Assembly: GCF_040448695.1 (NCBI RefSeq)
Contig: NZ_CP159307.1
Span: 868,001 to 932,000, forward strand
DNA length: 64,000 nucleotides
Source: Dehalogenimonas sp. 4OHTPN
GTDB taxonomy: Bacteria > Chloroflexota > Dehalococcoidia > Dehalococcoidales > Dehalococcoidaceae
Direction: 5' to 3'
Positions 12,262-15,253 of this stretch are shown piece after piece. The notes below the pieces were generated by a model. The model ran no database searches, was not told the origin of the DNA, and worked only from the letters and a program-made list of their open reading frames with translations. The translations under genes and the position numbers were made by a program. Numbering within the stretch: position 1 is the first letter of the stretch; the number at the start of each line of letters is the position of its first letter.

Positions 12262-12295
12262 ACAAGAGGGGCGCGGAATGCCGTGCCCCTCTTGT
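12262..12295 (+). terminator. Terminator shared by the opp operon and the convergent ars operon
   Basis: An 11-bp perfect stem (ACAAGAGGGGC with its complement), extended by an inner CGG/CCG, is followed by TTTCAG on the plus strand. It lies between convergent genes (oppF ends 12242, the selenoprotein ends 12311) and can work in both directions. Confidence 0.8.
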
Positions 12296-12310: not shown

Positions 12311-12646
12311 TCATCCAGCCGCTGGCTTTAATTCCTCTAACGCTTTGTCCAAAGCCTGCTCGATTCGCTCGGAATCGGCAGTACCCCAGCATGCGGCTAG
12401 GCCATCGACGAGGATAACCGGGAGAGCCCAGATTGAATATTCTTCAAACAACTTCACTACCGCTACAAAGTCCGGGTCTTCAGTGTTGATGGTTTCGATG
12501 TCGACAACATCGGCATCGATACCCAGCCTGCGAGCAACCGTATGCTTTATATCCGCAATCGTCTCCGACGATTGTCCAACCGGGCTTCAGCCGCTAGTAC
12601 AGCCGGCGTTTGGCAGGACGACGATGCTTACCTTGCGTTCTGACAT
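12311..12646 (-). CDS. Thioredoxin-like selenoprotein with in-frame UGA, ars operon
   Basis: Reading from ATG 12646, after the ribosome site GAGGAGG, the frame is open for 111 codons except for one TGA at codon 20 (12587-12589). Read as selenocysteine (U), the N-terminus is MSERKVSIVVLPNAGCTSGU, a beta strand ending in a Cys-xxx-Sec redox site where thioredoxin folds place CxxC. The rest fits that fold: helix (SETIADIKHTVARRLGI), strand (ADVVDIETI), helix, then a cis-Pro strand WALPVILVDG and a final helix. A SECIS-like hairpin lies immediately downstream of the TGA. The gene is 11 bases after acr3 and is the last of the operon, so it probably serves arsenic or selenium redox chemistry with the permeases. 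The alternative is a pseudogene, but the intact frame and hairpin argue against that. Confidence 0.82.
12556..12589 (-). promoter_or_regulatory. UGA codon plus bacterial SECIS-like hairpin
   Basis: The UGA is at 12589-12587. Twelve bases later a perfect 8-bp stem, CAATCGTC pairing with GACGATTG (12574-12556), encloses a GGA loop. The distance from UGA to apical loop is 20 nt and the loop begins with G. Both agree with the known requirements for SelB recruitment in bacteria (roughly 16-37 nt and a G in the first loop positions). Confidence 0.75.
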
Positions 12647-12657
12647 CCATACCTCCT

Positions 12658-13752
12658 CTATGATTTGATTACTGGTTGTTCGAAATAACGCCTTCGGAAG
12701 AAGTGGGCGACGTTGACCAGAGAGATTAGCACCGGCACCTCCACCAGCGGGCCGATGACCGCGGCGAAAGCTACTCCCGAACCGATGCCGAAAACGGCCA
12801 CGGCAACGGCTATAGCCAATTCGAAATTGTTGGAGGCGGCGGTGAAGGATATAGCTGCTGTCTGAGAATAGTCGGCGCCGATTTTCCAGCCTAAAAAGAA
12901 GCTGACCAGGAACATAATGACGAAATAGATTAGCAACGGCACGGCGATCCTGACAACATCGAGCGGCAGCTCGACGATGACGTCGCCCTTCAGGGAGAAC
13001 ATGACGACGATGGTGAAGAGCAAGGCGGTCAGGGTCATGGGGCTGATGCGGGGGATGAAACGCCTCTCGTACCAATCGCGGCCGCGTGCCTTGAGCAGGA
13101 AGTAGCGCGTCGCCATGCCGCCGAAGAACGGGATGCCCAGGTATATGAGGACGCTCCTGGCGATATCTGCGATGGAGACGTCGACGACAGCGCCGCCCAG
13201 GCCGAACCACTGCGGCGCCAAGGTGATGAAGACGTAAGCGTAGACTGAGAAGAAGAGTATCTGGAAGATGGAGTTGAAAGCCACCAGCCCAGCGGCGTAC
13301 TCGCAGTCGCCCTTGGCCAACTCGTTCCAGACGATGACCATGGCGATGCAGCGGGCCAAGCCGATCATGATCAGGCCTACCATGTAGTCCGGGAAATCAG
13401 CCAGGAAGATCACTGCCAGAGCGAACATCAGGACGGGGCCGATAACCCAGTTCTGCACCAGCGACAGGGCTAAAACCTTCCAGTTGCGGAAGACCTTGCC
13501 CAACTGCTCGTACTTCACTTTGGCCAGCGGCGGGTACATCATCAGGATTAGGCCGGCTGCGATGGGTATGGATGTGGTGCCCACCGACAGTGAATCGATG
13601 AAACTCCCGAAAGCCGGCAGGAAGAAGCCAAGACCTACGCCGCTAGCCATTGCCAGGAAGATCCACAGCGTGAGGTATCGGTCGAGGAATGATAGCGTCG
13701 TCGGACAACCGGCTTCCGGGGAAACGGCGCAGGAGACGTCAGGTCGGCTCAT
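12658..13752 (-). CDS. acr3: ACR3-family arsenite efflux permease
   Basis: Ten-span membrane carrier that exports arsenite. The 364-residue protein has the invariant Cys in [19 protein letters not shown] (Cys135) and the conserved Glu in [17 protein letters not shown], both needed for arsenite transport in studied homologues. The N-terminus contains two extra cysteines ([10 protein letters not shown]). The start ATG overlaps the end of the upstream permease by four bases and has a GAGGAGA ribosome site. It belongs to a five-gene minus-strand operon: arsR, two permeases, acr3, selenoprotein. Confidence 0.95.
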
Positions 13753-14327
13753 CTTTTCTCCTCAACCGGCCGCAGTTTGGACGGCGCCGGTGATTTCTCG
13801 CCTGGGTTCATCACCTCGAAGCTCTTGCCTTCTAAGTATTTTTCCAACATCAGGCCGATGCCGATGAAAAGAGGCAACGAGATGAGCGTCCGTGCCAGGG
13901 TGAATTCGACGCCCATATAACCGATCTCGATGCCCAGCATGGGTATTTTCATCGAGGAGAAGGCGCCCAGATAGATGAAGATGTTGCGTACACTGGTGCC
14001 TTTCTTATAGAGGACGTAGGCCACCGGGAAGGCGCCGTAAAGCGGCCCGGCCTGGAGCATGGCTAGGAGCACCACCAAGAACATGCCCTTAATGCCGGAT
14101 TCCGGGCCGAGATGCTTTTGTATCTGCTCCTTGGGCACCCAGACATCGAACAGGCCGATGATGATGAAAAGGAACGGAACGAAGGATATCATCTCCAGCA
14201 GCGAAACCCTGAAGTTGGTGAAGACCGTCTTGCCGGGGTCGAAACCCAGGGCGAAAGAGGTGATGGTCGCCACGCCGAAAGCGGCCACCCAAACGTACGG
14301 CTGGTATTTCTTGGCTATGGCTTTCAC
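13749..14327 (-). CDS. Half-size permease of the ArsP/UPF0718 superfamily (second half)
   Basis: A 192-residue membrane protein with about five spans. It shows the family pattern [38 protein letters not shown] followed by [17 protein letters not shown], with conserved Gly/Pro-rich turns. Full-length ArsP-type permeases have two such repeats in one chain. Here they are in two genes overlapping by the bases ATGA, so a heterodimer is likely. The C-terminus is a charged cytoplasmic tail. Substrate is inferred from context as an arsenic (perhaps organoarsenic) or related metalloid compound. Confidence 0.8.
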
Positions 14328-14806
14328 AGAATGACTCCGATGGCCAGTCCGATGATGATGGCGGCGAAGAAATTCAGGATGTTGCGGGCGACGGCGGCGC
14401 GTCGGCCGAAGTATTGTATCTCCAGCGGCAGGGTGACGATGCCAACCATGATCAGGGTGGTCATCAACGTGGCCACCACGGCGTAGCTGGCGCCCTGCTG
14501 CAGCAGCCCGGCGGCGATGGGATAGGAAATGAACGGCGGGATAAAGGCGACCGAACCGACGATGGCAGCGATGAAGAAGCCGCCGATGCCGGACCCGGCG
14601 CCGAGGTATTCATCGATGGCGCTGGGCGGGATGAGGTAGATGGCGATGCTGACGACGATAAGGATGTTCAGAAATGGCAGCAGCAGTTTCCGGAACATCT
14701 GCCAGCCTTTCTTGAAACCGGCGATCGTTTTCTGCCGGTCGAGAATGAATGAAACCGCCGATAACACGGAAGCCACGGAGATGAAGATGACGGCGTTTGA
14801 GCTCAC
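14324..14806 (-). CDS. Half-size permease of the ArsP/UPF0718 superfamily (first half)
   Basis: A 160-residue membrane protein with four to five spans and the repeat motif LGAGSGIGGFFIAAIVGSVAFIPPFISYPIAAGLLQQG, which mirrors the motif of the next gene. The start is GTG with a GAGGAG ribosome site. It is the first structural gene after arsR (30-base gap) and overlaps its partner by four bases. The pair probably form one transporter. The family is known as permeases of unknown or organoarsenical substrate. Confidence 0.8.
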   Translation of the reverse strand: MSSNAVIFISVASVLSAVSFILDRQKTIAGFKKGWQMFRKLLLPFLNILIVVSIAIYLIPPSAIDEYLGAGSGIGGFFIAAIVGSVAFIPPFISYPIAAGLLQQGASYAVVATLMTTLIMVGIVTLPLEIQYFGRRAAVARNILNFFAAIIIGLAIGVIL

Positions 14807-14836: not shown

Positions 14837-15253
14837 TTATCGGACGGTCGGTGGGCAGCTGGCCTCGGCTGGTTCAGCGGGCTCGCCAGTCGAAGACGGC
14901 GGGCAGAGCCGCCCGTTTTGGCGCAGTCTGCGGCGGTCGGCGGCGGCCAGATCGCTGTCGGCCAGCGCCAAATCCACGGCCTCGACCACCAGCTTCCGGT
15001 ATCCGGCGCCCGTTTCCGGCGAGAGGTAATAGATGGTCCATGGTCCATCTCGCCGGTACTCCAAGAGCCCGGCTTGGTAGAGTTGCGACAGGTTGCGCGA
15101 AGCCCGAGTCTGGGAAATGCCCAGCGCCTGCACCACCTCGCAGACACAGCATTCCCGCTCTATGAGCAGGTTCAAAACGCGCAGCCGGGTGACATCGGCC
15201 AATGCCTTCATCACCTCAGCCGGGTTTTCCAAGTCGTTATCTAATATGCGCAT
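14837..15253 (-). CDS. arsR: ArsR-family metalloregulatory repressor
   Basis: Winged-helix repressor of the ars operon, 138 residues. The recognition region ALGISQTRASRNLSQLYQAGLLEYRRDG is typical. The trivalent-arsenic site is ECCVCEV (Cys35, 36 and 38) in the first part of the DNA-binding helix, as in classical ArsR. Two further cysteines lie in the C-terminal tail (GRLCPP and SCPPTVR). The ATG at 15253 lies within a palindromic operator and has no ribosome site, so the mRNA is likely leaderless and autorepressed. Confidence 0.92.
   Translation of the reverse strand: MRILDNDLENPAEVMKALADVTRLRVLNLLIERECCVCEVVQALGISQTRASRNLSQLYQAGLLEYRRDGPWTIYYLSPETGAGYRKLVVEAVDLALADSDLAAADRRRLRQNGRLCPPSSTGEPAEPAEASCPPTVR

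Follow-up and report, generated by a model that had tools for sequence, protein, structure and literature searches.

Introduction

ArsD is a known arsenite chaperone. Arsenite usually takes three ligands, whereas methylarsenite needs two. The C. jejuni permease ArsP exports methylarsenite (PMC6205960). The published model of the bacterial SECIS comprises a loop of 3-9 nt with G in the first two places, a stem of 4-16 bp, a distance of 16-37 nt from the UGA and an MFE of at most -7.5 (PMC13188914). For Dehalogenimonas, the gene order selC-D-A-B as well as a Sec-containing SelD and formate dehydrogenase have been reported (PMC13390414, PMC4918011). Sec.1 and Sec.2 of Brachyspira are the nearest entries in a 119-family catalogue of prokaryotic selenoproteins (PMC13188914) to the protein described here. 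Its gene follows acr3 in the window (the whole stretch of DNA analysed, 64 kb), and the protein probably serves the pumps by binding or reducing arsenic.

The TGA codon and its downstream hairpin

The features of the locus are listed in Table 1. The minus-strand translation of 12646..12311 reads MSERKVSIVVLPNAGCTSG-U-SPVGQSSETI...LKPAAG. The initial annotation had named the TGA at codon 20 as the sole interruption of the frame after acr3, and the same coordinates were obtained here; the frame is otherwise open. The strong ribosome binding site and the perfect 8-bp hairpin with a GGA loop that it had described were likewise recovered. Only 11 nt separate the acr3 stop (12660-12658) from the start of the gene.

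Table 1. Features of the candidate selenoprotein locus (window coordinates)
Feature	Position	Strand	Details
Selenoprotein gene (predicted)	12311..12646	minus	111 aa, Sec = residue 20; terminal stop TGA at 12311-12313
TGA codon, predicted to be read as Sec	12587..12589	minus	codon 20; TGA in 9/9 copies
Ribosome binding site AGGAGG	12652..12657	minus	5 nt ahead of ATG
Putative SECIS hairpin CAATCGTC-GGA-GACGATTG	12556..12574	minus	8-bp perfect stem, 3-nt loop GGA, 20 nt UGA-to-loop
acr3, arsenite efflux transporter	12658..13752	minus	TIGR00832, 464.9 bits vs cut-off 282.8
ArsP-type half permease	13749..14327	minus	PF03773, 46.3 bits vs cut-off 32.3
Second ArsP-type half permease	14324..14806	minus	PF03773, E 1.4e-5, below cut-off
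arsR-type metalloregulator	14837..15253	minus	ECCVCE motif
Inverted repeat, 15-nt arms	12262..12295	.	terminator-like, between convergent ars and opp operons

The stem of the hairpin begins 12 nt past the TGA. Loop, stem, distance and MFE all lie within the limits of the published model (PMC13188914), which agrees with the SECIS geometry claimed initially. When folded, the window sequence and three relatives form an identical 8-bp stem (-9.2 to -15.7 kcal/mol); the RNA-fold z-scores, -1.3 to -2.0, are modest. Rfam yields no match in the region. Geometry alone was dropped as evidence of recoding: a screen of the 64-kb window for a TGA with a perfect stem of at least 8 bp behind it returns 20 listings, corresponding to about ten places.

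The evidence beyond chance is instead provided by the retained TGA, the synonymously frozen hairpin codons and a pattern that is unique to the gene. The six codons of the hairpin (Gln-Ser-Ser-Glu-Thr-Ile) are identical in 208/208 synonymous comparisons. In the rest of the gene the synonymous identity is 632/1507 (42%), and the highest value of any other six-codon stretch is at most 68%. The pattern CAATCGTCNNNGACGATTG is present in 8 of 393 genomes of the class, all from this genus, where every gene copy has it once and no other site does. As the stem is identical in all copies, it gives no covariation evidence. The second copy in genome G200 has the loop GTC in place of GGA with an unchanged stem, and this loop fits the G[G/U] rule of the published model. 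Additionally, the hairpins of SelD (loop CGGGU, 16 nt after the UGA) and formate dehydrogenase (loop AGUUU, 18 nt after the UGA), both read from the sequences of the same genomes, are similarly placed, which supports a SECIS function of the window hairpin.

Conservation within the genus

The gene is present in all eight genomes analysed from the genus (apparently Dehalogenimonas), in nine copies with two in G200 (L027 7845-8198 and L028 7837-8136). Each copy contains exactly one in-frame TGA, and these fall in the same alignment column. The initial annotation had proposed to align homologues and inspect the column of the U residue; every copy has the Sec TGA there, no Cys homologue was found at this column and all known members carry TGA. 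At 26-52% identity to the window protein, the homologues are too divergent for recent copying to explain the conservation. Several residues straight after the TGA are invariant. Among the 71 fully aligned codons past the hairpin, the third position varies in all 71 and the second in 52. Past the UGA, the median dN is 0.52 and the median dS 1.90 (half of the pairs are saturated), which indicates purifying selection downstream of the UGA.

The genome of the window (G000; 1.75 Mb, one contig, 99% complete) encodes the complete Sec machinery in the order selC-D-A-B: tRNA-Sec (selC, anticodon UCA), SelD (226104-227021), SelA (227170-228504, 534 bits) and SelB (228582-230432, 353 bits). These are the four genes whose absence had been named initially as an argument against a selenoprotein. 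SelD itself contains one TGA in 8/8 genomes of the genus and a formate dehydrogenase with one TGA was found in 7/8. Both selenoproteins and the gene order agree with the published description of Dehalogenimonas. In G068, no full-length formate dehydrogenase scores above the family cut-off. This genome encodes a short formate-dehydrogenase-like molybdoprotein (G068:C1:1435585-1436295, L053) with TGA (Sec) at the catalytic position; Cys (TGC) stands at this position in four further members of the genus (L056-L059).

Standard ORF calling of the window terminates the frame at the TGA, as would be expected of a true stop that leaves a pseudogene, or a short leader peptide with re-initiation. Nine copies that each keep one TGA at one column, the invariant residues right after it, the synonymously frozen hairpin and the full Sec machinery make this explanation very improbable. 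Judged from the sequences, UGA codon 20 is almost certainly recoded as Sec, with the hairpin as SECIS.

Outside the genus, no homologue was found among 294 genomes of the class searched with the protein, nor among 400 genomes of the phylum in a profile search, bar one weak partial match. That match (G318, Chloroflexota; E 6.7e-4, 44 columns) has a TAG inside and was set aside as probably chance. Pattern-based scans gave no relatives, neither in genome contigs (queried with the single protein and the alignment) nor in viral contigs (queried with the single protein); the alignment scan rested on one SECIS-overlapping peptide and is weak evidence outside the phylum. No relatives were obtained by tblastn against plasmids and phages.

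Operon and genomic neighborhood

The order in the window is arsR, two ArsP-type half permeases, acr3 and the selenoprotein gene, which is thus located at the end of an ars operon as initially described. The ECCVCE motif of the regulator resembles the arsenite site of ArsR, ELCVCDLC (PMC2440759). The two ArsP-type half genes (13749-14327 / 14324-14806) overlap, are 23-28% alike and resemble an unfused internal duplication. Most of the genus has this split arrangement.

In seven of the eight genomes acr3 is directly upstream of the selenoprotein gene. In G200, one copy stands alone between opp and downstream genes (the syntenic place) with no ars genes beside it. The other, 28% alike to the window protein and carrying the GTC loop, directly precedes the ArsP-type half genes. 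Canonical ArsD is absent from G000. Canonical ArsD and ArsA-type genes follow the selenoprotein gene in G189 and G083 (ArsA named from sequence), so the protein is not simply a replacement for ArsD in these two genomes. Downstream of the gene in G146, G135 and G124 come a full ArsP-type permease and an ArsE-type thioredoxin with CPKC/CAKC (profiles tested for G146). Beside ArsD or ArsE-type genes, the selenoprotein would be a third thioredoxin-fold component next to two known ones.

The ArsD directly downstream in G083 (L034 6039-6950) is fused behind a DUF2703 domain. This domain is a weak match to the model of the DF (seleno)protein family (35.5 bits; the cut-off is 70) and apparently contains no Sec, its frame having no internal stop. 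G000 also encodes an ArsC-like protein (L075 1432-1941, near 72943-73299), situated by phosphate-transport and PhoU-like genes and off the ars operon. Its scores of 66-72 bits fall far short of the cut-offs for arsenate reductases.

The copy outside any ars cluster would suit a carrier or buffer not of arsenic but of selenium or another chalcophile (selenide, selenite or a metal such as Hg), encoded in the operon because these stresses arise together. Sec also occurs in predicted organometallic systems (SAO) and in metal-binding selenoproteins (PMC13188914). Such a role is improbable, however, since acr3, a family annotated as arsenite exporter, is the fixed partner in 7/8 genomes and ArsD and ArsA share the operon in two.

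Cys-Sec center and predicted fold

The loop with Sec also contains at least one nearby Cys in every member. In seven of the nine members this Cys is at -1, giving adjacent Cys-Sec. The Cys-xxx-Sec center of the initial annotation (Cys at -4) holds for the window protein and G200 copy 1, whereas the other seven members depart from it. The conserved center takes either form, Cys-Sec or Cys-xxx-Sec, instead of a fixed CxxxU, and the spacings CxxU and UxxC are found in none of the nine members.

AlphaFold2 models of the window protein and of the relative L012 (pLDDT 84.5 and 85.2) have the layout beta-alpha-beta-alpha-beta-beta-alpha of the thioredoxin type, in accordance with the thioredoxin-like fold that had been suggested from the sequence. 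Cys and Sec are predicted to sit close together in the beta1-alpha1 loop of this fold; the Sec-bearing loop is the least certain internal part of both models. An invariant Leu-Pro occupies the cis-Pro place in the family alignment.

In a Foldseek search of the PDB, ArsD ranks first for both models (3ktb, 3mwh, 3kgk), although these matches are weak (E about 2e-3, TM 0.45-0.60). In VIA-align, ArsD (Z 6.1-6.7) is tied with SelW-like and other thioredoxin folds, which reach up to 7.4. By hhalign, the family matches ArsD with an E of 4.3e-5 and a probability of 69 over the C-terminal half only, compared to an E of 0.024 and a probability of 2 for the ArsE type. Thus, the modelled fold class is firmly that of thioredoxin and the kinship to ArsD is suggestive.

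A Cys beside Sec in a thioredoxin-fold loop, together with the Leu-Pro at the cis-Pro place, is compatible with catalysis, and a redox function is assumed for most of the thioredoxin-fold selenoproteins in the catalogue (PMC13188914). The Cys-Sec pair could then cycle via a selenenylsulfide and reduce an oxidised arsenical (arsenate or methylarsonate) or keep cysteines of the pumps or the regulator reduced. TlpA/thioredoxin-like and CcdA-like proteins (CcdA named from sequence) are encoded in the operons of some relatives, which is in line with such an enzyme. Against it stand the missing CxxU and UxxC spacings and the shift of the partner Cys between -1 and -4, which is unusual for a catalytic pair. 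Furthermore, arsenate reduction as a needed role of the selenoprotein is weakened by the ArsC-like protein, as this reaction need not fall to the selenoprotein. A Sec redox enzyme is a strong rival to a carrier, though with less than an even chance.

Proposed function

The best reading, with a probability of about 0.5, is a Sec-dependent, ArsD-like metalloid carrier that works with the Acr3 and ArsP-type permeases. A small cytoplasmic selenoprotein would be made by reading UGA codon 20 as Sec via the downstream hairpin as SECIS. Trivalent arsenic, perhaps in the form of methylarsenite, would be bound by its Cys-Sec pair and handed to the Acr3 and ArsP-type permeases of the same operon. Methylarsenite is favored because the site holds only two ligands (Cys and Sec), which is reasoning, not data. 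Under strict anaerobiosis, selenium may confer tighter binding and be the more reactive ligand.

A partner Cys that changes place is easier to reconcile with a ligand than with a catalytic pair. Adjacency to acr3, the position of the second G200 copy upstream of ArsP-type half genes, the ECCVCE regulator and the lack of a canonical ArsD in G000 also point to a carrier, as do the first rank of ArsD in Foldseek and the preference of hhalign for ArsD over ArsE. The weakness of the Foldseek matches, the tie in VIA-align, the restriction of the hhalign match to the C-terminal half, the absence of the ArsD Cys triad, the presence of canonical ArsD and ArsA next to the gene in two genomes and the G200 copy with no ars genes beside it argue against a carrier. 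The fuller claim, that of the first selenocysteine-based arsenic metallochaperone, apparently restricted to the genus and passing As(III) or methylarsenite via Cys-Sec to Acr3/ArsP-type pumps, is tentative and falls somewhat short of an even chance.

If the findings are true, a selenoprotein family missing from current annotation is added, and selenium supply is directly linked to arsenic tolerance in bacteria of chlorinated-solvent clean-up. At such sites arsenic may also be mobilised. If the protein is a metallochaperone, the arsenic resistance of these organohalide-respiring bacteria would depend on selenium. It would also offer a concrete test of whether a carrier protein can use selenium to ligate a metalloid, beyond the role of selenium as a redox catalyst. 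UGA-truncated genes beside transporters are worth re-examination.

Comparison with known families

The family scores below the cut-off of every model in NCBIfam (June 2026) and Pfam, and the 119-family catalogue (2026, PMC13188914) contains no ArsD-like or acr3-linked family. With the families of Haft and Gwadz 2023 and Haft and Tolstoy 2025 compared via NCBIfam models only, this is a new, uncatalogued selenoprotein family.

Membership in ArsD was rejected. The best member scores 20.0 bits with PF06953 (cut-off 27; E 8.8e-4), NF033727 gives a best E of 0.0047, in two of nine members, and the three-cysteine motif AMCCxTGVCG (CC..C triad) is absent from the members. Membership in MTH895/ArsE was rejected as well, with 14.6 bits for TIGR00412 (cut-off 62), 24.5 bits for the best member with Thioredoxin_3 (PF13192; cut-off 24.8, E 2.7e-5) and no CxxC active site.

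The link to Sao proposed in the initial annotation was not upheld. Like the SAO system with SaoT, the locus combines a thioredoxin-like selenoprotein with a metal(loid)-linked operon, but SaoT (NF040730) gives no profile match, its UxxC motif is missing here and no sao genes were identified in the window operon. Sec.1 and Sec.2 of Brachyspira (PF13192) are also small thioredoxin-domain selenoproteins with the UGA near the start and the SECIS just after it. Their Sec, however, is part of an extension that precedes the thioredoxin domain, and its motif is CxU or UxC (PMC5330540). With MTH895/ArsE the protein shares a small thioredoxin fold beside ArsP-type permeases. It differs in having no CxxC and in being about 30 residues longer, and true ArsE genes share operons with the selenoprotein gene in other species.

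ArsD has three Cys where the selenoprotein has one Cys and one Sec, and in two genomes the selenoprotein sits alongside a true ArsD. In one MAFFT alignment Sec tentatively falls on the third ArsD cysteine, in C/U-G-P. Both proteins share their size, the predicted thioredoxin fold, Cys-type ligands in the beta1-alpha1 loop, the LP-hhh-DG strand and a place in ars operons, and ArsD is the best neighbor of the selenoprotein in Foldseek and hhalign.
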